Source: a virus. From it: DNA of 26,332 nucleotides. Below, in pieces: positions 332-17,997 of the stretch; position 1 is the stretch's first letter; each line of letters begins with the position of its first letter. The DNA is taken from IMG/VR virus record IMGVR_UViG_3300037258_000528, positions 1-26,332 of that record. One strand, 5' to 3'. The notes below the pieces were generated by a model. It was not told the DNA's origin. It ran no database searches and was given only the letters and a program-made list of their open reading frames with translations. A program made the position numbers and the translations under genes.

Positions 332-466
332 CTAATCTCCTTCATTTAAGGCCGGCACAAAAATCGGCAGCTTCAGGGTTCCCGGGCGCGAGTCGGGCTT
401 GTCCTCGACCTGGCCCGTGGCAATATCGATCATCAGCTTGGCGAGCTGAGCCGGCGCGGGCGGCAC
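332..466 (-). CDS. Possible small protein (44 aa)
   Basis: A short frame opens with GTG at 466, overlaps the 3' end of the PLD-type nuclease gene by 34 nt and stops just before the AAGGAG of the next gene. The product (VPPAPAQLAKLMIDIATG..., ending FVPALNEGD) has balanced composition, unlike the arginine-rich shadows around it, which is the main reason to list it. An internal ATG at 430 would give 33 residues. No good ribosome binding site precedes the GTG; translation by coupling to the upstream gene is possible. Function unknown. It could instead be a displaced C-terminus of the nuclease gene, but that protein already ends where PLD nucleases normally do. Confidence 0.4.
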   Translation of the reverse strand: MPPAPAQLAKLMIDIATGQVEDKPDSRPGTLKLPIFVPALNEGD

Positions 467-1080
467 CAGCGCTCGCGCGCGCCGAACGGCGTCGACAGCG
501 CCTGGCGGGCGGTCCAATAGGCGCGGTATTGCGCCGCGACGGCCGGCGACGACACGAGGTTGGTGTCCTCGGCGTTGCGCATCGCGGCGGCCGAGAAGTT
601 GAAGCTGCCGAGGATCAGCCGCGCCGCCGATGTGCCGGCGTCGATGATCAGCACCTTGTTGTGCGCGATGCGCGGCCGCGCGTCGATCATGACCGGGATG
701 CCGGCCGCCGCCAGCGCGTCGGCGCCGGCGCCGCGCTGGCACGGGCTGATCTTGTCGAGCAGCATCGCGACGTCGATGCCGCGCGCCTTGGCGCGCACCA
801 ATGCCGCGACAATCGGCGCGCTGGTGAAATTGTAGGCCTGGCCGCGGATCTCCCGCCGCGCCCCGTCGATCGCCGCGACGATGAACGCCGTCGCGTCGCA
901 CCCCGGCACCAGGCAGCTCGTGACGCTCGCCGCCATCGGGGTCGCCGGCGACAGGGGCGGCGCGGCGGCGCCGGGCGCGGAGGCCGGCGCACAGCCGGCG
1001 GCAGCGGCCACGACGAGCGCGATGGACGACAGCACACGCATGCCGCGCAGCATAGCACACGCCAAACTTGTGCCCGTCAT
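433..1080 (-). CDS. Phospholipase D-like nuclease, predicted lipoprotein
   Basis: 215 residues from an ATG whose last bases overlap the stop of the upstream peptidase gene (ATGA). A second in-frame Met at residue 14 begins a cleaner lipoprotein signal: positively charged start, hydrophobic run, then a lipobox ending AAGC with Cys30. The mature part has one HKD motif, H140-x-K142-x4-D147 (core HNKVLIID), followed by GSFNFS at 158-163 and an Asn/Glu segment near 169-171, as in small single-HKD endonucleases of the Nuc/PLD family, which act as dimers with a shared active site. Inference: a nuclease held on the periplasmic face of a membrane, where it could cut incoming or external DNA. It sits at the end of the lysis/conversion module rather than with DNA metabolism genes. 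Substrate is unknown. Confidence 0.82.
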   Translation of the reverse strand: MTGTSLACAMLRGMRVLSSIALVVAAAAGCAPASAPGAAAPPLSPATPMAASVTSCLVPGCDATAFIVAAIDGARREIRGQAYNFTSAPIVAALVRAKARGIDVAMLLDKISPCQRGAGADALAAAGIPVMIDARPRIAHNKVLIIDAGTSAARLILGSFNFSAAAMRNAEDTNLVSSPAVAAQYRAYWTARQALSTPFGARERWCRPRRLSSPS

Positions 1081-4888: not shown

Positions 4889-5043
4889 ACGCTGGCCATC
4901 GTCAAATCTCGCTCGCCGGTCGGCCTGATTTCCTGGAGCGCCGTTTCCAGCGCCGTCTCCAGCGACGCGACGCGCTCGCGCAGATCCGACGGCACGCCGG
5001 CGCCGAGCCCGGCCGCTTCGGGCACGAATTTCTGCTCGCTCAT
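4885..5043 (-). CDS. Small coiled-coil protein (52 aa)
   Basis: Starts at ATG 5043 overlapping the stop of the SGNH esterase gene (ATGA) and ends overlapping the next start. It begins MSEQKFVPEA, matching MSEQDSVPEA of the following gene, then has a short helix LRERVASLETALETALQEI that could form a coiled coil. It lacks the membrane segment of its neighbour. It looks like a shortened duplicate; a partner or regulator role is possible but not shown. Confidence 0.55.
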   Translation of the reverse strand: MSEQKFVPEAAGLGAGVPSDLRERVASLETALETALQEIRPTGERDLTMASV

Positions 5044-6884
5044 GGCACCGCGACGTCTGCCAGAAACGGCACGGCCCAAGCGTCGATCGTCTTGCCAGGA
5101 AAAAGCACACTCGGCGGCCCCGCCATGACCAGGTTGCCCCGAACGCCCGATAGCAGCCCCGGGTTCGTGCCCCCGAGGCCGTACCAGGCGTACGACACCT
5201 CCAAGGCGTCCCCTGTGGATAACGCGTCGGCGACCGTGATGATGATGTTCAGGCTGCTGATCACGAGGCTCGTCAAGGTCAGGGACGAACCTCCTCGCTT
5301 CACGACAAAGCCATAATTGGCCAGTAGGCCCGGATCGGCGATGACGCCGTTCCAGTCGCCCGACGACCAGCTCAATACCCCGGAGATGAAATCCGCCCCC
5401 GCCGGTCGGTCGAACGGGATCGTGATGACCTGCCCGGAGACCGAGACCGCCGCGCCGAGGCTCTGCCACAGCGGCGTGAACGCGACGCCTTGGTCGCGCG
5501 TCAGGCAGCGGACGTAGCCCTCCCACTCGCCCCAGCGCACCGTGCCGTAGGGGCCGGTGTGGATGTTGCCGTAGGCCGGGTCGGTCGGGTCCGTCACGAA
5601 GGGCCAGGGGTAAGACGAGGCCGAGAAAAAACACCGGCCGCTCCACGTCCCGCCCTGCCCCGGCGCGTGCGTCCTGCAGAACTCCACCGTGCCGAAATAC
5701 GATGAGTTGATTTGGGTCTGCTGGGTCTGCGCCGAGGGCAGCCCGAGGTAGTAATCGGTCGTGTTGCCGAGCAGTGCGTCGTAGTCCTGCAGCATGTCGG
5801 TCAGGTCGCCGACCTTCCCAGTGTCGGTGTTGTCGGTCGACGCGCCCTGCGTATAGCCGACCGAGGAGCAACTCAGGTTCTCGATCTTGCCATTCGGCAC
5901 CAGCGCCGCGGCCGCGGCGATGATCGTCAGCATATTGGCCCAGGACACCCCCTTACACGCGAGGGTCTCGCTCACGACGGTCTGAGGGAGCGAGAACGCG
6001 TACGTTCCGATGCCGCCGGCCGAACCACTGATCTGCGCGAGCACGGTCGTGCCGGCCGGTATCCCCGGGGAGCCGGCGTTACTGGCCGTGACGACATCAC
6101 CGGGGTTGATCGTCCCGGTCACTGAAGTCAGGTAAAAGACCCCGAACAGCGAGTACCCGACCGCCGTCCAACCCGCGACGCTCGCAAAATTGATGTTCTG
6201 CCCGCCCGCGCTGTCGAGCAGCGTCGAGTAGAGGAATTGGCTGTACGTACCCGCGTCCCCGGATGGCCCGGTAAGCTGCGCGTAGATGGCCGTCTGCGCC
6301 GCGACGCCGGTGCCGCTGACCTGCTGGTTCGGCACGAAGACCCCCCCGGTCGGCGTGCCGAGAGTTAACGTCGTTCCGGAGATGCTCCCGCTGCAGGTCG
6401 GGCCGGGAGCTAGGCCGCCGCCGAGCCCGGAGGTCCACGTCGAGCCCGGGAAGGCGGTGCAGTACTCAAGCACTGGCGACGTGGCGATGCCGGCTCCCGC
6501 CCGCAACAATTGCTGCGCTAGCACCGCCGCGCGCCCGATTGACACCTGATCGGTCGCCGCGTAATTCGTAAACCCCGTGAAGGTGCCGGTCGGCAGGCTG
6601 ATGCCGGCCCCATTAGAGAGCGGCCCCGGCTTGAAGGTCGGCGTTCCGATATTGGAGACCTTGAGCGCCACCGGGGCGCTGTGCGGGAGGGCGAACCCGC
6701 CGTAACTGCTGAAGGCGTTCGTGCGCCAGGACTGCCCCTCGCTGAAGTGCACGTCGAGGATGTACGGCGAGCGCTGATCGGGGATCAGCTGGCCAGTGGC
6801 GTACGAGATCGCCGCCCGCACGCGGCGGGGGGGAGCCAGTAAACCCGCCACTGCCCCAGTCAGGAACGCGCGGCGCGTCGTCAT
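5040..6884 (-). CDS. Tat-exported SGNH-hydrolase-like esterase with inserted Ig-like repeats
   Basis: 614 residues. The start MTTRRAFLTGAVAG is a twin-arginine signal (TRRAFL) ending near VRA at 22-24. SGNH blocks can be followed: block I GQSW at 50-53 (Ser52 as nucleophile), a PGSTW near 146-150, a GYTQGAS-TD segment at 343-351 where the family often has QGExD, and a last block with DPTDPAYGNIH at 432-442 (His442, Asp432 or 435) followed by GPYGTVRWGEWEGYV. Between blocks II and III lie two beta-rich repeats (about 163-232 and 240-308) with V-SG-G-A-T and GTY patterns. The C-terminal third is beta-rich. SGNH enzymes of this type de-acylate carbohydrates. Because it follows the tail fibre genes it could be a virion depolymerase/esterase, but the Tat signal instead suggests export to the host envelope, where it could modify surface glycans. 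The start overlaps the upstream stop by one base. Confidence 0.72.
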   Translation of the reverse strand: MTTRRAFLTGAVAGLLAPPRRVRAAISYATGQLIPDQRSPYILDVHFSEGQSWRTNAFSSYGGFALPHSAPVALKVSNIGTPTFKPGPLSNGAGISLPTGTFTGFTNYAATDQVSIGRAAVLAQQLLRAGAGIATSPVLEYCTAFPGSTWTSGLGGGLAPGPTCSGSISGTTLTLGTPTGGVFVPNQQVSGTGVAAQTAIYAQLTGPSGDAGTYSQFLYSTLLDSAGGQNINFASVAGWTAVGYSLFGVFYLTSVTGTINPGDVVTASNAGSPGIPAGTTVLAQISGSAGGIGTYAFSLPQTVVSETLACKGVSWANMLTIIAAAAALVPNGKIENLSCSSVGYTQGASTDNTDTGKVGDLTDMLQDYDALLGNTTDYYLGLPSAQTQQTQINSSYFGTVEFCRTHAPGQGGTWSGRCFFSASSYPWPFVTDPTDPAYGNIHTGPYGTVRWGEWEGYVRCLTRDQGVAFTPLWQSLGAAVSVSGQVITIPFDRPAGADFISGVLSWSSGDWNGVIADPGLLANYGFVVKRGGSSLTLTSLVISSLNIIITVADALSTGDALEVSYAWYGLGGTNPGLLSGVRGNLVMAGPPSVLFPGKTIDAWAVPFLADVAVP

Positions 6885-7993
6885 CAGTAGTTCAGCCAGA
6901 TTGCGCCGGGCGCTCCGTTGCCGCCGGCCTGGTTGAGACCGCCACCGCCGCCGCCGCCGCCGAAACCGTTGCCGGGCGCGCTGCCGGGCTGCGACGAGCC
7001 GCCGCCGTTGCCGCCGCGGCCGCCATCGCCGTAGACCGACCTGCCCCCGCCGGCGCCCGCTCCGTTGCCCGTTCCGCCGGCCGCGGCCGCGAACGGGCCG
7101 ACCCCGGAGTTGCCGCCCGCACCTGCTGACCCTGCCGTGTTGCCGCCACCGCCACCGCCGGCGCCGCCGAGGTAGTAGGGGCTAAGCGGAGTCTGCGCCG
7201 ACCCGCCCACCGCACCCGCCGAGCCGCCGTTGCCCTGGCCCGGCGTGCCGCCGTTGCCCCCCGTACCGCCCGTGCCGCTGCTACCGGCGTTGCCCAGCGA
7301 TCCGCCATTGATGCTAGGCGGCCCGTAGACCATGCCGGTGACCGCTGACGCGGTAGCGTTCGTCCCGTTGGCGGCGATCGCGCCCCCAAGACCGGGCTGG
7401 CCAGGCGTCACCGTCAGCGTAGCTCCGGGCGTGACGACGAGCGGGAAATTTTCCAGATTGGCTCCCGCGCCCGCGCCCGCGCCCCCGGCGCCGCTCGTCA
7501 GCTGCCCGCCGCCACCGCCCGCGCCGCCGCCGACCGCGTTCTCCCGCAGCAGGGTGAGGTTGGCTGGCACGACCCAGCTGTATGACTGGACCGTCGCGAC
7601 CGGAGTTGAGAAGCCCGAGCCGGTGCCGCCGAGATTGGTGTTCGAGGCGGTCAACACGTCGCTCAGGAGGTACCCGGTAGCGCCATTGACACCGATCGTC
7701 GCGCCGCCCTGCGTAATCGTCACCGAGGTCACAGCGCCGCCACCGTTGACGACGATCGTCGCGAGGGCGCCGGTCGCCCCGCCCGCGGCTCCTGTTAGCG
7801 GCACGTTCGTGTAGGTGCCGGCGACATAGCCGGACCCGCCGGTGATCGCGCCGACTGTCAGCAGCGGACCACCGGTGAACTGCACCGACGTCGGCTGGTG
7901 CGGCGCGTAGGCAATATCGGCCGAGGCGGACGCAGCGCCTAGTAATTGCAGCGCGAGGAGCGCACCGCTGAGGCACTTGATCGTTCTTCCCAT
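6884..7993 (-). CDS. Exported glycine-rich fibre-like protein
   Basis: 369 residues from ATG 7993 (a GTG at 8005 overlapping the upstream stop is an alternative). It opens with a Sec signal, MGRTIKCLSGALLALQLLG...ASA, likely cut before Asp26. Residues 40-130 contain GG-G-Y--GTYTNVPLTG and related beta-strand repeats typical of phage appendages. From about 145 to the end it is dominated by glycine blocks (GGGAGGGGG, GAGGAGAGAG, GGTGGNGG, GGAGGGGGG), ending GAPGAIWLNY. Such terminal glycine-rich regions form polyglycine-helix bundles in phage adhesin and fibre tips. The non-signal-bearing fibre gene upstream ends with the same kind of module. The signal peptide is unexpected for a virion part. 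Confidence 0.72.
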   Translation of the reverse strand: MGRTIKCLSGALLALQLLGAASASADIAYAPHQPTSVQFTGGPLLTVGAITGGSGYVAGTYTNVPLTGAAGGATGALATIVVNGGGAVTSVTITQGGATIGVNGATGYLLSDVLTASNTNLGGTGSGFSTPVATVQSYSWVVPANLTLLRENAVGGGAGGGGGQLTSGAGGAGAGAGANLENFPLVVTPGATLTVTPGQPGLGGAIAANGTNATASAVTGMVYGPPSINGGSLGNAGSSGTGGTGGNGGTPGQGNGGSAGAVGGSAQTPLSPYYLGGAGGGGGGNTAGSAGAGGNSGVGPFAAAAGGTGNGAGAGGGRSVYGDGGRGGNGGGSSQPGSAPGNGFGGGGGGGGLNQAGGNGAPGAIWLNY

Positions 7994-7998
7994 GATCT

Positions 7999-8367
7999 CT
8001 ACCACTCCCGCGCGGTGAAGGACTGGCCCGTCACGGCGCCATAGATCGAGATCGCACTAGGCGCGGCCGGATTGCAGCTGAAGGCCGCGCCCGGCGGCAG
8101 CCAAAGGCTCGGCTCCGAGGGTGCGGCGGTCGTCAGATCGTTGAACCACAGGTCGCCGGGTGAGTTGTTCTGCACGAAACAACCGCGCCGGCTCGCGTTC
8201 GCGGCCATCAGCGCCTGCGCCGTGCCGCCAGCCGTGACCGTGCCGGAATGGTCGATCGGCGTTGATGCGGCGCTGACTGCGCCGCCGGGCAGCAGCACCG
8301 CCGCGGCAACGGCCAGGGCCAGTACCAGCAGCGGGCCAGGACGGCAGCGGCGGGTCTTGGTCATCAT
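7999..8367 (-). CDS. Exported small protein, duplicate of neighbour's C-terminal domain
   Basis: 122 residues from ATG 8367 (two ATGs in a row), two bases after the upstream TAG. A long signal peptide (RRCRPGPLLVLALAVAAAVLL, cut near VSA) leads into an 88-residue domain that matches residues 150-237 of the protein encoded just upstream at most positions: TPIDHSG, GC-QNNS-GDLW-NDLTTA, WLP-GAA, AIS-YGAVTGQ and the identical end TAREW. Two cysteines are conserved between copies. The fold is probably a small beta sandwich. Function unknown; export and the fibre-region location suggest a cell-surface or adhesin-related role. Confidence 0.7.
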   Translation of the reverse strand: MMTKTRRCRPGPLLVLALAVAAAVLLPGGAVSAASTPIDHSGTVTAGGTAQALMAANASRRGCFVQNNSPGDLWFNDLTTAAPSEPSLWLPPGAAFSCNPAAPSAISIYGAVTGQSFTAREW

Positions 8368-8369
8368 CG

Positions 8370-9083
8370 CTACCACTCCCGTGCCGTATAGGGCTGGCCG
8401 GTCACGGCGCCGTAAACCGAGATCGCGCCCGGGGGCGCCGGGTCGCATTGATAGGCGGCGCCGGACGGCAGCCAAATGCTCGGCGTTGCCGGCGATGCGG
8501 TCGTCAGGTCGTTGAGCCAAAGATCGCCGGAGGAATTGTTCTGGATCAGGCACCCGAGGCGGTTCGCATTCGGTGCCATCAGGGTCTGTGCCGCGCCACC
8601 AACCGCCACCCTGCCGGAATGGTCGATTGGCGTCGCGCTGACTGGGCTGCCGGCATTGGCCAGCACGAACGCCGTAGTCGCAACCTGCTGCGTGTTCGTG
8701 CCGGGCGGCGCGGTCGGCACCAGCCCGATCACCTTGAGCCAGCGGCCGGGACCGGTGACGGCGGTCGGCTGGATCACCGTCGCGCCGTCGTCGGCAGCGG
8801 TCGACTTGCTGTTCCAGTAGAACATGCCGCCAAAGCCGTCGCCGACGCTGGCCAGGCCGCGGGCGTAGACCTCGGTGCCGGTATCCTGGCCGGCGCTGGC
8901 CGGCACTGTCGCGCCGACGAAATTGCGCAGGTCGGTGACCAGGTCGGTGCTCTGGACAAACGAGTTCGCGACGCCGTGCGGGAGCACGTACTGGAACCCG
9001 AAGGTCGCCAGGTCGGCCCGCGCCGCGCCGGCGCCGAGGCCGAGCGACAGCAGCGCAACCGCAAGCGCACGTACGAGGCGCAT
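8370..9083 (-). CDS. Exported protein with tailspike-like N-terminal domain and duplicated C-terminal domain
   Basis: 237 residues from ATG 9083. A clear Sec signal (MRLVRALAVALLSLGLG, cut after ARA at 21-23) precedes a segment at about 45-119 with the pattern DLRNFVG...VYARGLASVGDGFGGMFYW...TVIQP...GRWLKV, which is the start domain I associate with phage tailspikes and pectate-lyase-like fibres. Residues 128-141 hold a fibre-type NTQQVATTAFV repeat. The last 88 residues form a domain repeated in the next gene. A virion protein normally needs no signal peptide, so this may be an exported derivative of fibre modules. Confidence 0.72.
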   Translation of the reverse strand: MRLVRALAVALLSLGLGAGAARADLATFGFQYVLPHGVANSFVQSTDLVTDLRNFVGATVPASAGQDTGTEVYARGLASVGDGFGGMFYWNSKSTAADDGATVIQPTAVTGPGRWLKVIGLVPTAPPGTNTQQVATTAFVLANAGSPVSATPIDHSGRVAVGGAAQTLMAPNANRLGCLIQNNSSGDLWLNDLTTASPATPSIWLPSGAAYQCDPAPPGAISVYGAVTGQPYTAREW

Positions 9084-9096
9084 GGCGCGATCTCCC

Positions 9097-10242
9097 TCAG
9101 CTGAATTCGTAGACGACGACGAGGCCGGCGCCGCCATCGCCGCCGGTCAGCGTGGCGCTGGCGTCGTAGCTGGCGGTGCCGCCGCCGCCGCCGCCCTGGC
9201 TGCCGGCGAGGCCGTTCAGGTTGACGGTCGCCGCCGCACCGCCCGGCCCGAGCTGCGACCGGCCGCCGGCGCCGCCCCAACCGCATTGGCCGCTGATGAC
9301 GAGGCTCTGATCGCCGGTGCCGCCGAGGATGCTGATGACGTTGGCCAGCGTCGCGGCGCCCGAGCTGCTGCCCTGGCCGCCCGAGAGCGCTTGCGCTTCC
9401 GCGCTCGAGGCGGTGCCGCCGGCGCCGCCGGGGCAGGACATGCCGCCGAACGAGGTTGCGCCGCCGTTGCCGCCGTTCGCGCCGGCGACAGCGACGCCGC
9501 CGGCGCCGATCGTGACGGTCTCGACGCCAAGCCCCTGGAAATAGCCTTTGCCGTAGGTACCGGCACCGCCGCAGGTGCCAACCGCATAGTTGTTGCCGCC
9601 GGCATTGGTCACCGGGCAGCCGCCGCCGGCGCCGCCGGCGCCGACCATCTCGACCAATTGCGACCGGGTGCCGGGGGTCGGCGTATAGGTGCCGGACCCG
9701 CTGAAAATCTGGATATTGAGGAGGCCGCCGCGCGGCCGGCTGTAGCGCCACCACACCGGCGCCGTCGAGACCGTGCGCTTCATCAGCACGACCGGCACGC
9801 CGGTGACGAGGTCGCCGGCGGCGAGCGCGCTGCCGTCGGGATAGGTGATCGGCGCCGCCGAGCCGCCCGACACCGCCAGCGTCGCCGCGCCGGTGTTGGT
9901 GTAGGCCGGCAACACGGTCAATACCGTGCCGTCGATGATCGAGGCGGCCGCCGGCAACGCCACTGGCGGCGTCACCGCCAAGGCGTTGACCCCGCCGACA
10001 TCGGCCATCGTCGCGGCCGCCAGGATCGCCTTCAGGACCTGCGCGACATCGGTCTTCGACGCCGACTGGCCGGTCTGCGTCAGCAGCGACATGAACTCGG
10101 CCGAGACCGCATTCATCCAGTCGGGATCGGCGTCGGTCGGCGCCGTCGCGCCGGTCAGGTCGTTGTTGGCCCAGCCCGGCGACACGACCGGGTTCGGCGG
10201 CGGGCGTGATGCGAGCTGGCCGCCGGCATCGCTCAATTGCAT
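9097..10242 (-). CDS. Tail fibre protein with glycine-rich tip
   Basis: 381 residues, no signal peptide. It begins with a segment seen in Mu-like fibres (NPVVSPGWANNDL..., then D-DWMNAVSAEFMSLLTQTGQSASKTDVAQVLKAI, about residues 40-72), followed by beta-rich spacer (TGAATLAVSGGSA), a short linker GGLLNIQIFSGSGTYTPTPGT near 170-190, and from about 195 a glycine-rich receptor-binding region (GAGGAGGG, GGNGGAT, GGAGGR, SQGGGGGG) ending GGAGLVVVYEFS. It directly follows gp48, where Mu-type phages place their side-fibre gene S. The FSGSGTYTP motif is a common junction to glycine-rich phage fibre tips. Confidence 0.85.
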   Translation of the reverse strand: MQLSDAGGQLASRPPPNPVVSPGWANNDLTGATAPTDADPDWMNAVSAEFMSLLTQTGQSASKTDVAQVLKAILAAATMADVGGVNALAVTPPVALPAAASIIDGTVLTVLPAYTNTGAATLAVSGGSAAPITYPDGSALAAGDLVTGVPVVLMKRTVSTAPVWWRYSRPRGGLLNIQIFSGSGTYTPTPGTRSQLVEMVGAGGAGGGCPVTNAGGNNYAVGTCGGAGTYGKGYFQGLGVETVTIGAGGVAVAGANGGNGGATSFGGMSCPGGAGGTASSAEAQALSGGQGSSSGAATLANVISILGGTGDQSLVISGQCGWGGAGGRSQLGPGGAAATVNLNGLAGSQGGGGGGTASYDASATLTGGDGGAGLVVVYEFS

Positions 10243-10252
10243 CGCATTTCCC

Positions 10253-10903
10253 TCAGCACATCGGGGTCAGGTCGACGATGAAGTCGCCGCCGCCGACAAA
10301 TTCGACCAGCGTGTGGGCCGGCTTGAGGCGCAGGATCTCGCATTCGACGGCGCCGCCGGCGAAGCTCCACAACGGGCTGCCCCACTGGTCGCGGCCCCAT
10401 TGGAAGCGGTATTCGACGCCGCCCGAGATCGTGACCTGCCAGATGTAGGCCCAGGCCTGGCAGCGCAGCGGCGCGCCCCAATGGTCGATACCCCAGCGGA
10501 ACGGCGCGTATTCGGTGACCGTGATCGTGCTGCCGAGGTTCAGCGCGAGCTGCTGGAAGTAGGGGATCGACTGGCCGCCCGAGGCCGCCAGCCGCGCCAG
10601 CACGGCGGCCTGCCGCGCCGCCACAACCGGGTTGGCGCCGAGGCACGGGTCGGGCAGCCCGAGGACGCGCTCCCAATCCGGCAGCAGCTCGACCGATGTC
10701 GGCGGAAACGCCTCGAGTTCGGTCAATGCGCCGACCCGCGCGTGCAATGCGGCAAAGGCGCCGGCGATCGCGTTCCAGAAATTCTGCAACACGCTGCCGG
10801 CGAGGCGGGTCCAGGCGAGGCCGCGCGGCAACAGGCCGTTGCCCAGCGCCGCCGCGAAATCGCCCTGCCCGAGCCCGGCGTAATTCGGCGGCAGGTCGCT
10901 CAC
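10253..10903 (-). CDS. Baseplate protein, Mu gp48 / YmfQ-like (DUF2313)
   Basis: 216 residues. Matches the gp48 pattern: LPRG-AWTR near the N-terminus (25-33), LLPDWERVLGLPDPC at about 73-87, a run of Arg/Ala helix (ARQAAVLARLAASGGQS), a central FRWGIDHWG / FQWGRDQWG double motif and a C-terminal ECEILRLKPAHT that is typical of the family. gp48 completes the baseplate wedge between gp47 and the fibres in Mu-like phages. It lies in the expected order after gp47, with a 25-nt gap. Confidence 0.88.
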   Translation of the reverse strand: MSDLPPNYAGLGQGDFAAALGNGLLPRGLAWTRLAGSVLQNFWNAIAGAFAALHARVGALTELEAFPPTSVELLPDWERVLGLPDPCLGANPVVAARQAAVLARLAASGGQSIPYFQQLALNLGSTITVTEYAPFRWGIDHWGAPLRCQAWAYIWQVTISGGVEYRFQWGRDQWGSPLWSFAGGAVECEILRLKPAHTLVEFVGGGDFIVDLTPMC

Positions 10904-10928
10904 CGGCCCCGCCTCACAAGAAGATGCC

Positions 10929-12083
10929 TCACAGGAAGGTGCAGGTGCCGAGCGTCGGCAACTCGCCGATCGAGGTCGCGATGTTGTCGGTCGGCGCCGT
11001 CACCAGCGCGCCGGCGCAGTTCGGCGCCGCCCGCACCGCCGCCTGGATGTCCGACAATTCGACCGTGCCGCCGACGACCGCGCCGGCGCTGTTGAGGCTC
11101 GCAGCCGCGCCCTCCTGGAACAGCAAGGCCGCGATCGCCGCCTCGACGGCGCTCTGCTCGCCGGACGGCACATATTTCAGCGTGAAGTTCTGCGGCACCG
11201 CGGTCGGCGCAAACGCGTAGACCAGCGCCGTCGCCGGGCGCAGCGGGTAGAGGAAATCGGCCAGCGCCAGCTGGTCGCCGGCGGCCGGCGTGTCGCGGGT
11301 CTCGGCCGTCGCGACGCCGTTGGTGCCCTGCGGGAAGCCGCCATAGGCGCTCTCGGCGACATCCTCCATGAAATAGACGACGACGGTGCCGGCGCCCTTC
11401 TGCAATGGCGCGCACCAGGCGCGGGTCACGGCCGGCAGTTCGAGCGCCCACTCGATGTAGTCGTTCTGGTCGCCGCCCTGCGGCGGCTGCCGGAACAATT
11501 GCAGGTAGCGTGCGACAAAGGCGGCGTTGCTCTCGGGCGGCGCGCCGTCGGTGATCGCGGCGACGCTGGCCCAGGTGTTGGGGATGCCGGCGATCCCCTG
11601 CACCATGGTCAAGGCCGCGCCGGCGCCGCAATTCCACTGCGAGCCGTCGCTCGCCGGCGTCGGCAACACCGCGACGATCGGCGCCGTCACATTGCCGCCG
11701 CCATCGGCCGTCGCATCCGCGCTGGTCGCAAAGACGAGACCCGGCTGCAATTGCAGCTGCGTGCCGAGCGGCACGTCGGTGCCGGTGATCGCGCCGCTGA
11801 CCGTCGCACTGCCGGTCGCCGCGACCGGGCCCTTCGGCGTCACCCCCTTCACCGCGCCCCAGCGGGTCGAATAGGGCGGGGTCGCCGTATCCGGCATCAG
11901 CGCGTTGTCGATGATCCAGTCGAGATAGCCGTATTCGCCATCGAGCGCGGCGGCGGTGACGGTCGCGGTGACCGCAAGGTTGGAGCGCCGCAAGGCCGTG
12001 ACGGCGCCCGCCAGCAAGGCCTGGAAGCCGGCGGTTATCTGCGCCGCGATCTGCGCCAGCGTCGGGCGCTGGAACGACGACAC
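10929..12083 (-). CDS. Baseplate wedge protein, Mu gp47 (baseplate J-like)
   Basis: 384 residues. N-terminal helix and the LAVTATVTAAALDGEYGYLDWIIDNALM segment, then RWG-VKGV-PKGPV-A-GSA, a beta region with PLGT-L, the YL-----PPQGGDQNDYIEWAL motif near 217-232 followed by VTRAWCAPLQKGAGTVVVYF, and a C-terminal DIQAAVRAAPNCAGALV: all are landmarks of the baseplate J family (P2 gpJ, Mu gp47). It forms the wedge ring of the contractile baseplate. The gene is separated by four bases from gp46 and keeps Mu order. Confidence 0.92.
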   Translation of the reverse strand: MSSFQRPTLAQIAAQITAGFQALLAGAVTALRRSNLAVTATVTAAALDGEYGYLDWIIDNALMPDTATPPYSTRWGAVKGVTPKGPVAATGSATVSGAITGTDVPLGTQLQLQPGLVFATSADATADGGGNVTAPIVAVLPTPASDGSQWNCGAGAALTMVQGIAGIPNTWASVAAITDGAPPESNAAFVARYLQLFRQPPQGGDQNDYIEWALELPAVTRAWCAPLQKGAGTVVVYFMEDVAESAYGGFPQGTNGVATAETRDTPAAGDQLALADFLYPLRPATALVYAFAPTAVPQNFTLKYVPSGEQSAVEAAIAALLFQEGAAASLNSAGAVVGGTVELSDIQAAVRAAPNCAGALVTAPTDNIATSIGELPTLGTCTFL

Positions 12084-15599: not shown

Positions 15600-16574
15600 T
15601 CATCGCAGCACGGCCTCGTCGGCGGCGGCGGCGCGCTTGCGCAATTCGACCGCTGGCGGCGCCCCCATTTGTGCCGCGGCCGGAAAATAGCCGGCGAGAT
15701 CGATCGCCTTGACGATCAACTTGCCGTTCGGGTGCGTCGTATAGCTCCGCTTCAGCAGATAGCGCTCGACGCACGCCACCGCGCGCGAGGTGAGAAACTG
15801 CACGGTGCTCTTTTGGTGATGCGTCTCGCGGTGCCGGTCGATCAGAAACCGCAGAGCCTCGATCGCGTCCAGCTTCAACCCCGCCTTCTCGCCATCGTTT
15901 CTTGCGTACCGCTCCCAGAACTCTTTCACGGCAAGCGCACGCTCGTTCGGCCGACCAGCGCGCCGAGGAGCATTTTCATCCACGACGTACAAAAACTCGG
16001 CGGTCCTATTGCGTCGCAGCGTCAGCAGCGCGGCGGCCGTTATTGCCCCATTGAAGTAGGTCGCGCTGATCGCAATCTCGTCGAGCAGCTTCAGCTCGGG
16101 CAGCCAATGCGCGACCAGCGTGTGGACATCGACATGCGCCGCGTTGACGTGCATCTCGATGCTGAAGGCGAGCCGCAGCGCCGCCGCGATGGCGCCGACC
16201 CGCATGAAGCCCGACGCCGGTTCGAACCCCAGCTCGCGGAAGCTGCCGAACACCTTGTCGGTCGCGGTTTCGAGCGCCGCCTGGTTGTCGCAATGGTCAT
16301 AGAGTTCGACGACCTGCGCCAGATCGGCGGCGTGATACACCGTGACCCACAACTCCGCCGGCGCCAGCTCGGCATGCTGCTGCCAGAACAGATCGCGGGT
16401 ATGGCCGTCGACCTTGAACCGGCGGCCGTCGGGCAGCACCGCCATCTTGACGGCCTGCTGATCGAGCGACGGCGTCAACAGGTGCTTTGCCCGCCGGGCG
16501 CGCTCCTCGGTGTTGCGCTGGCGCGGGTTGCCGGGGATCGCCGACCATTCGGCCGGCGTCATCGTCGTCTGCAT
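15600..16574 (-). CDS. ParB/sulfiredoxin-fold protein inside the tail operon
   Basis: 324 residues from ATG 16574, chosen because AGGAG lies 7 nt upstream; the same frame stays open further upstream but without a comparable site. The N-terminus has ParB-type motifs: IPGNPRQRN at 13-21 and FKVDGHTRDLFW at 53-64 (compare I--NP-Q-R and the DGHHR box). Residues 75-110 form a VTVYHAADLAQVVELYDHCDNQAALET helix-rich segment; the rest is helical with ALRFLIDRHRETHHQKST near 255. No HTH is obvious. ParB-fold proteins of phages are CTPases, nucleases or regulators; which applies here is not clear. It is cargo: unrelated to tail assembly, preceded by a structured leader and followed by the gpN-like gene. 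Confidence 0.68.
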   Translation of the reverse strand: MQTTMTPAEWSAIPGNPRQRNTEERARRAKHLLTPSLDQQAVKMAVLPDGRRFKVDGHTRDLFWQQHAELAPAELWVTVYHAADLAQVVELYDHCDNQAALETATDKVFGSFRELGFEPASGFMRVGAIAAALRLAFSIEMHVNAAHVDVHTLVAHWLPELKLLDEIAISATYFNGAITAAALLTLRRNRTAEFLYVVDENAPRRAGRPNERALAVKEFWERYARNDGEKAGLKLDAIEALRFLIDRHRETHHQKSTVQFLTSRAVACVERYLLKRSYTTHPNGKLIVKAIDLAGYFPAAAQMGAPPAVELRKRAAAADEAVLR

Positions 16575-16714
16575 CTTGTCTCTCCTCTGGGGCCGGGTTA
16601 GCAGACCCGGCGCGGTTCGGGCAGTCGCCCAGTGAAGGGCGACTCCCGGCCCCAGAGAAGCCTGAGGAAACCGGAAGCCGCCGCGCATCCCGCTGCTACG
16701 CGGGAACCTGATCG
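16575..16714 (-). promoter_or_regulatory. Structured leader with two exclusive folds before the ParB-like gene
   Basis: Between the S24-like and ParB-like genes, a perfect 13-bp inverted repeat (arms 16585-16597 and 16645-16657, CTCTGGGGCCGGG type) encloses a perfect 8-bp hairpin (16623-16630 / 16637-16644). The arm nearer the gene overlaps two bases of the AGGAG ribosome site (16582-16586). A competing 6-bp hairpin (16593-16598 / 16605-16610, CCGGGT/ACCCGG) shares five bases with the same arm and would free the site. This looks like translational control of the ParB-like gene. A further 6-bp hairpin sits at 16688-16705. No T run follows, so it is not a simple terminator. Confidence 0.55.
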
Positions 16715-17086
16715 TCAATTTTGATAGCAGTCCTCGAAGACCCGGCTGTCGATCACCCGGATCTCGGCGGCGACGATGCCGACCACCTTCCTGTCGAACT
16801 CTGCGCGCGGCATCGACCACCGCTCGCTGAACCGCGGGTTGTCGAACCACAGCACGACGTTCCCGGCCCCATCGTATTGACACCGGTAGACGACCGCCTC
16901 GCCGTCAATTTCGACGACGTAGAGCCCGTCGGACCGGAAGCGATCGCACGGCGTCGCGACGACGAAATCCCCTCGCCGCAGCGTCGGCTCCATGCCATTG
17001 CCCTCGATCGCGATCAGGCGTGGTCGCCCCTGCGCGGGGATCGGCGGCGAGGCATGCTCCCCGCCCAACATCAGGTCGTAAGGCAT
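16715..17086 (-). CDS. S24/LexA-like domain protein without catalytic dyad
   Basis: 123 residues from ATG 17086 with GAGGAA 8 nt upstream. The body follows the LexA/CI C-terminal peptidase fold: IEGNGMEPTLRRGDFVV at 27-43, DGLYVVEIDGEAVVYR at 53-68, WFDNPRFSERW at 80-90 and VVGIVAAEIRVI at the end. In active family members the first motif is GDSM with Ser as nucleophile; here it is GNGM (Gly31). The general-base Lys expected near VVYR is Tyr67. There is also no N-terminal DNA-binding HTH: the domain begins about 22 residues in. It is therefore probably a non-cleaving dimerisation module, possibly one that pairs with a repressor or LexA. Neighbours are the folded region upstream and the ParB-like gene. 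Confidence 0.72.
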   Translation of the reverse strand: MPYDLMLGGEHASPPIPAQGRPRLIAIEGNGMEPTLRRGDFVVATPCDRFRSDGLYVVEIDGEAVVYRCQYDGAGNVVLWFDNPRFSERWSMPRAEFDRKVVGIVAAEIRVIDSRVFEDCYQN

Positions 17087-17373: not shown

Positions 17374-17402
17374 TTGCCAGACCCGTCGGTTCCAAATTGA
17401 AT
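17374..17402 (+). promoter_or_regulatory. Sigma-70-type promoter for the moron
   Basis: TTGCCA (17374-17379, five of six matches to -35) is separated by exactly 17 bp from TTGAAT (17397-17402, four of six to -10). The start point would be near 17409, 34 nt before ATG 17443. It faces the only plus-strand gene and lies in locally AT-richer DNA. The earlier ATG at 17401 falls within the -10 box, so it cannot be the start for this promoter. Confidence 0.5.
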
Positions 17403-17442
17403 GTGCTCTCGCGTCCCTCTACCGCAGGCCGAGAGTTTTTCC

Positions 17443-17997
17443 ATGCTTCACCGGGCATTGCTGCTGGCGCTGCTGTTCACTCACCTTGCCGCCTCGCGCC
17501 TCGCAGCAGAGAGTTCAGCGGGGGCGCCCGAGGACTCCGCTGAGCAGATCGCCGACGCTCTCGGCTGCACACATACGCTTTCCGCCGGCGTACCCTTTGG
17601 GCATCTGCGGGTGCGCTGCCTACAGTCGACGCTAGTTGATGAAATCCCATCGCTGCAAAAGGCGGGACTGATAAACCAGGAGTACGATCAAACTTATATC
17701 AACACCCATGATACTTCGCTCGCCGCAGTAGTGCTCCTTCAGGTTACGGCGTTTTTGCTTCCCAGTACGTACCGGTCAAGCGAGATTGACTCTCTTACTG
17801 TCGAGAGCGTTCTCGGCGCGGCAGATGATTTTGGACATATTGTAGACCAGTCCGTTTTCAATTTTAGGTTCACCCGTGCCCTATTCGCCAAGATCGATTG
17901 GGATCATTTCGAGACGCGCCGGCTGTCTAAAATCGCCCCGGGCTTTACCGCCAGTCCCTGGCTGCTCCGCGCGACAGCAAATGAGCCTGACCGCTAA
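17443..17997 (+). CDS. Exported moron protein on the opposite strand
   Basis: 184 residues from ATG 17443, the only well-supported plus-strand gene. It has a Sec signal (MLHRALLLALLFTHLAASRLAA). The mature protein has cysteines at 42 and 59 (possible disulphide), a moderately hydrophobic segment at about 92-107 and a helical, mixed-charge C-terminus. I recognise no family. The DNA from about 17640 to 17900 is distinctly less GC-rich than the tail genes. It is convergent with the tape measure gene and their stop codons interlock in the four bases CTAA (17994-17997), leaving no room for a terminator. Own promoter, opposite strand, unlike composition and a non-structural exported product are the marks of a lysogenic conversion gene (moron). 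Confidence 0.75.
   Translation: MLHRALLLALLFTHLAASRLAAESSAGAPEDSAEQIADALGCTHTLSAGVPFGHLRVRCLQSTLVDEIPSLQKAGLINQEYDQTYINTHDTSLAAVVLLQVTAFLLPSTYRSSEIDSLTVESVLGAADDFGHIVDQSVFNFRFTRALFAKIDWDHFETRRLSKIAPGFTASPWLLRATANEPDR

Follow-up and report, generated by a model that had tools for sequence, protein, structure and literature searches.

With its 26,332 bases, the window analysed here covers an IMG/VR contig in full and carries a Mu-like structural region on its minus strand. Along that strand the gene order runs from Mu Gp48 (Pfam, 102.9 bits) and a tail fibre through four genes, here termed A, B, C and D, to a spanin-like gene, a small Rz1-like gene and a GH25 endolysin; names given to tail-module genes that have no profile match are our reading of the open reading frames. 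The tail fibre (9097..10242, minus strand; phrog_863, E=4e-39) is an ordinary, signal-less one that lies upstream of the exported set and outside it. Gene A (8370..9083, minus strand, 237 aa) joins a Sec signal to a tailspike-type segment, a fibre repeat and a C-terminal phrog_22789 jellyroll-type domain with a cysteine pair, and gene B (7999..8367, minus strand, 122 aa) consists of a Sec signal and the same type of domain. Gene C (6884..7993, minus strand, 369 aa) has a Sec signal, a GSGY-type repeat and a Gly_rich_2 domain, and gene D (5040..6884, minus strand, 614 aa) encodes a large cysteine-containing protein behind a Tat-type signal. Ribosome sites of the GGGAG type lie shortly 5' of A, B and C, and the start ATG of D overlaps the stop codon of C (TGATG).

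Each of the four reading frames opens with an export signal, as the first-pass annotation had proposed: three are of Sec type and one, that of D, which is the weakest, appears to be of Tat type. Signals were graded with a home-made score and starts were picked by a simple rule. In A the signal peptide (residues 1-23; 9015..9083, minus strand) reads MRLVRALAVALLSLGLGAGAARA before the cut and D after it, with RxxR in its n-region, a hydrophobic core and an ARA cleavage motif (score 4.9). That of B (residues 1-33; 8269..8367, minus strand), recognised from the sequence, reads MMTKTRRCRPGPLLVLALAVAAAVLLPGGAVSA and then A (score 5.4), while that of C (residues 1-25; 7919..7993, minus strand) reads MGRTIKCLSGALLALQLLGAASASA and then D, with an ASASA cleavage motif (score 4.3). 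All three have the positive n-region, hydrophobic core and small residues at -3 and -1 expected of Sec signals. The signal of D (residues 1-24; 6813..6884, minus strand), MTTRRAFLTGAVAGLLAPPRRVRA followed by A, contains TTRRAFLTG with the Tat motif TRRAFL, a charged c-region and a VRA-A site; its score is only 3.2, so the Tat call for D is made on the motif. Among 47 control Mu-like loci, 23 of 818 genes (2.8%) scored as signal-bearing and no run of four such genes was found.

When the sequences of A to D were read by eye for a lipobox, no cysteine was seen after the cleavage motif in any of them, and in the Tat-type partner proteins of related contigs, described below, it is a Q that precedes the cysteine. 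As neither a convincing lipobox nor any other anchor for the outer membrane was seen, Sec and Tat would take A to D only as far as the periplasm before lysis. The suggestion that the cassette coats the surface of the host cell is therefore not supported in the form in which it was first made.

Some other genes in the window may be noted. A gene near the lysis genes (433-1080, minus strand) pairs a lipoprotein-like signal, VAAAAGC, with a PLD-like domain (PLDc_2, 63 bits) and is a further exported phage protein. Inside the tail region, an opposite-strand gene with a Sec-type signal and no Pfam match (17401-17997, plus strand) is a possible moron. At 15600-17086 (minus strand), between tail genes, there is a Peptidase_S24 gene of the LexA/repressor type (31 bits), and beside it a ParB-like-looking open reading frame with no Pfam match.

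The modules originally assigned to the four genes were tailspike start, fibre repeat, glycine-rich tip and SGNH esterase, and all but the last can be recognised. The tailspike-type match of A is weak (phrog_38440, E=0.006), and its tail-fibre repeat is common to a tail fibre of contig L004. C matches Pfam Gly_rich_2 (PF21722) with 37.2 bits against a cut-off of 24.3, and has no match in cultured phages. The domain of about 88 residues in B is also the C-terminus of A; the two are 71% identical and look like a duplication that was fused in A, and phrog_22789 matches each over most of the domain (E=1.2e-9 for A, E=3.3e-15 for B). The B domain is modelled as a small beta sandwich with a pLDDT above 95 over the domain, and its fold matches, which are weak, are to jellyroll/cupin-type proteins and include the viral spike PM2 P1 (E=0.004).

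For D, no family was matched in Pfam, PHROGs, NCBIfam or PDB sequence searches. Its SGNH-like motifs are limited to GQS (residue 50) and IHTG (residue 441), its fold prediction is of low confidence (pLDDT 33), and no similarity is detectable to the SGNH proteins of contig L096 or phage phiM5; for want of that similarity and of a family match, the SGNH label was dropped. The scan of viral contigs gave no close relatives of D or of the baseplate protein.

To see how widely the arrangement recurs, IMG/VR was scanned with an alignment of the phrog_22789 domain, which gave 149 contigs, of which 80 were kept; the contigs are metagenomic and some are near-duplicates. Over all loci the domain stands directly behind a signal peptide in 68 of 91 domain reading frames, a proportion biased by the choice of this set for similarity to B. 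The next gene is also signal-bearing in 60 of the 68, mostly with a Tat-type signal (RRSLLLAG); in 60 of 68 contigs the signal-bearing neighbours adjoin directly, the gaps ranging from -7 to +5 nt. When a larger number of unique domains was compared, domain gene and next gene were both signal-bearing in 51 cases and both signal-less in 22, and they disagreed in 8 (signal on the domain gene alone in 6, on the next gene alone in 2). At least four of these eight are artefacts of start choice or scoring. Among the discordant pairs, L096 and L134 do have the signal from another start, gene A of the window carries its signal far upstream of its domain, and L075 is a false positive with a glycine-rich start; a portal gene comes next in L113 and L060, and in L201/L204 a Tat-type fibre lies just upstream.

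Four consecutive signal-bearing genes, as in the window, were found in two other contigs, L096 and L059. The row in L096 consists of a Sec-type domain gene, a Sec-type gene, a Tat-type SGNH gene and another Sec-type gene, the third of which matches phrog_8480, the SGNH esterase family seen in phiM5 (E=3e-22). L059 has four Sec-type genes in a row between the portal and major head protein genes, and in the related phages the cassette sits between the terminase/portal and capsid genes. Domain genes without a signal occur as well: in phiM5 one precedes an SGNH gene, and in L079 and L112 they precede glycine-rich fibres that resemble gene C in type, so the same kinds of pair are known in signal-bearing and in signal-less form. 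A signal-less branch of homologues, with starts beyond the signal, had been named as evidence against export and is thus present; the signal-bearing branch is nevertheless both sizeable and conserved, and export is not refuted.

Three records of 40-42 kb hold one domain copy each, so no cytosolic copy was seen in them. The signal-bearing form was found in none of the cultured phages of the collection, and an integrase is present in only one of nine records. Few genomes contain the phrog_22789 domain at all (in one class, 3 of 385), so evidence from host prophages is thin. Nor did we find an exported spike cassette of this kind described in the literature searched, and we regard the locus as a genuine exported form of such a cassette, apparently not described before.

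Several further signal-bearing genes were seen in these contigs. One is found among the fibre genes of a phage record of 42 kb (L221 12740-13306; record G001:C1:32740-33306; MKVLSWLLLAGLLIPPAPAQ...) and seemingly resembles the gene at L096 11447-12016. In L059, two small Sec-signal genes (10675-10935 and 10932-11150), one of them cysteine-rich, lie behind an exported larger protein; this contig, with its portal and head genes, was binned as Armatimonadetes, which may be wrong.

In the main lineage the domain gene is partnered by a gene whose product has a Tat signal and is homologous to Rcc01080, the head spike fibre of a gene transfer agent. A profile of 21 such partners matches PDB entry 6tb9, chain Rcc01080, with E=6e-46, and the partners score above the cut-off of NCBIfam GTA_spike_fiber; searches of Pfam, PHROGs and NCBIfam gave no homologue of this family among A to D. 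The motif QCV at the mature N-terminus is invariant in the 21 sequences, the remainder of which is very variable. Their PHROG match begins at about position 355 of the 801 in the profile, and the Tat partners therefore lack the N-terminal part of typical members. Signal-less relatives of the head spike fibre (L166, L168, L177, L199, L150, L152 and others) open with a conserved four-cysteine module, KCGYCRFFVAPRACGKVIGPVSPQGWCKYFSR, that recalls iron-sulfur proteins, although L168 has no Pfam match.

The cysteines of the small domain go together with the signals. Those at B positions 63 and 98 are present in 50 of 51 aligned signal-bearing domains and in none of 20 signal-less ones. The exception, L059, belongs to a distant lineage and has its pair at 66 and 95; in L201/L204, where the signal-bearing domains are divergent, the cysteines are at 74 and 89. 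In the B model Cys63 lies on strand 63-67 and Cys98 on strand 95-98, residues 73-76 and 88-90 also form strands, and the sum of 63 and 98 equals that of 66 and 95, as a single antiparallel ladder predicts. Judged from strand positions on this model, from which contact between the cysteines is deduced, the pairs at three positions in three lineages lie on strands that can pair with each other. L057, the nearest relative of L059, has neither signal nor cysteines, and the two cysteines in each of the signal-less L075 and L124 are at places that do not fit these strand pairs.

This distribution is what export to an oxidising periplasm predicts, and it argues that the proteins do reach an oxidising compartment; the signals themselves are retained in other phages, and the original proposal of export is supported. 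The argument is strong by its pattern and not by a formal test: the tree forces the signal to have been gained independently just twice, so that an independent-contrast test of cysteines against signals could not reach significance, and that test scored the L059 pair as absent because its cysteines fall in other columns. The cysteine content of the fibre core does not differ between Tat-type and signal-less fibres (0.66 against 0.62 per 100 residues), so the argument is drawn only from the B domain and the invariant N-terminal QCV.

Dozens of uncultured soil phages carry this kind of cassette, which suggests that some phages export the spike proteins that bind their hosts and do not retain them in the cytoplasm, where the virions are. 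In the window the cassette would consist of B, a small protein of jellyroll type that was duplicated and fused in A, and of the partner proteins C and D behind it. Late in infection A to D would leave the cytoplasm through Sec and Tat, and the B-type domains would then form their disulfide in the periplasm. The next steps are less certain. Small protein and partner may also form a complex there; the QCV that is constant in otherwise variable fibres is a hint that base and partner could join in this compartment. At lysis such complexes might meet the virions and become attached to them as spikes that bind or modify the host.

The reading we put forward, tentatively, is that A to D form a secreted phage spike cassette, completed outside the cytoplasm and mounted on virions at lysis. 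The first-pass annotation had held that exported fibre-like proteins make no sense as virion parts, a view that does not agree with the families involved, which are virion spike families, as seen from the phiM5 pair annotated as present in particles and the homologues of Rcc01080. An end on virions is preferred to one in which the proteins stay free or change the host surface because of the phiM5 proteome annotation, the location between terminase/portal and capsid genes in related phages, and the single copy per record. Against it, the window cassette adjoins the tail fibre and lysis genes rather than head genes, and neither of its partners, C and D, is the head-spike-fibre homologue. In the literature searched, no precedent was found for attachment to a capsid after export. 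On the usual view, tailed-phage virions are put together entirely within the cytoplasm. That a group of tailed phages builds its host-binding spikes outside, with base and fibre leaving by two separate host pathways, Sec and Tat, becoming oxidised in the periplasm and joining the virions only at lysis, is a broader proposal and slightly more speculative.

In a broader form of the original proposal, the proteins might instead be exported and act free of the virion, binding or chemically changing surface polysaccharide in the periplasm or on release, and so preventing progeny from being caught on debris, altering or masking receptors, or aiding escape from the matrix, a purpose comparable to that of T5 Llp. 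The Sec and Tat signals fit this, as do the SGNH esterase-type partner in L096, the Tat partners that lack the N-terminal part of typical PHROG members, and the presence among the partners of homologues of a head spike fibre that enables attachment to the capsule in the gene transfer agent RcGTA of Rhodobacter capsulatus. Free proteins might mask or modify surface polysaccharide, hide receptors or block superinfection, but we consider it rather doubtful that the cassette works in this way: surface display before lysis is left unexplained where no convincing lipobox or outer-membrane anchor is seen, each record has one copy and no separate virion version was seen, and the homologous signal-less pair of phiM5 is annotated as present in particles.

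It is a good deal less probable that the hydrophobic N-termini are docking peptides for virion assembly that resemble signals by coincidence. In RcGTA the fibre does rely on a hydrophobic peptide at its N-terminus, and co-evolving docking could also put signal-like sequences on neighbouring genes. Against this stand the twin-arginine motif with an AxA-type cleavage site and a charged c-region, and the Sec-type sequences on one gene and Tat-type on the next, with more Sec-type neighbours in L096 and L059. The restriction of cysteine pairs to signal-bearing domains, at three separate positions, also speaks against docking peptides, and mature B would have roughly the length of the entire virion protein phiM5_13, which is signal-less. 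Similarly improbable is a mixed set in which only some of the four, for example A to C by Sec, are exported and D is an unrelated gene with an incidental Tat motif. The low score of D, its lack of a family match, its low-confidence fold and its lack of detectable similarity to the Tat-type SGNH protein of L096 would all agree with this, yet D shows the TRRAFL motif, could plausibly be cleaved at VRA-A and has a start that overlaps the preceding gene, as a coupled gene should, and Tat partners beside Sec-type genes of the B kind are common. A recurrent paired Sec/Tat cassette of spike type, with cysteine pairs confined to its signal-bearing forms and present in many uncultured soil phages, means either that virion assembly may use the periplasm or that free secreted spike proteins target the host envelope.

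Exported late phage proteins are familiar in the form of spanins, SAR endolysins and T5 Llp, a receptor-blocking lipoprotein, which travel through Sec to the periplasm or outer membrane. To our knowledge none of these belongs to a spike or fibre family with a head-spike-fibre homologue as its partner, and we know of none that uses Tat.

Closer in kind is the spike of RcGTA, a capsid-mounted pentamer of the jellyroll base Rcc01079 with one fibre, Rcc01080 (PMC7296036). The N-terminus of this fibre, IALGLGLGL, docks into the base pentamer, the N-termini of the base bind the capsid, and the spike fibres enable attachment to the capsule (PMC7296036). The likeness lies in the Tat partners of the related contigs, which are homologous to Rcc01080, and in the pairing of a small beta-sandwich/jellyroll-type protein with a fibre. 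The B domain had no sequence match in the PDB that would join it to Rcc01079, which is also absent among the 50 PDB fold matches listed, and a term search of the RcGTA spike papers found no mention of signal peptides in the text covered. The two systems differ in that the RcGTA fibre N-terminus serves docking, whereas here export signals are seen on both genes and a cysteine pair in the small domain; moreover, the partners in the window are C and D and not members of the Rcc01080 family.

The Sinorhizobium podovirus phiM5 offers the second comparison. Its domain gene, phiM5_13, lies by the capsid gene and differs from the window cassette in that neither it nor its neighbour has a signal peptide and its domain is without cysteines. 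It nevertheless resembles the cassettes described here in being a phrog_22789 domain gene directly followed by an SGNH hydrolase gene, phiM5_14, and the products of both genes are annotated as 'detected in phage particle proteome'.
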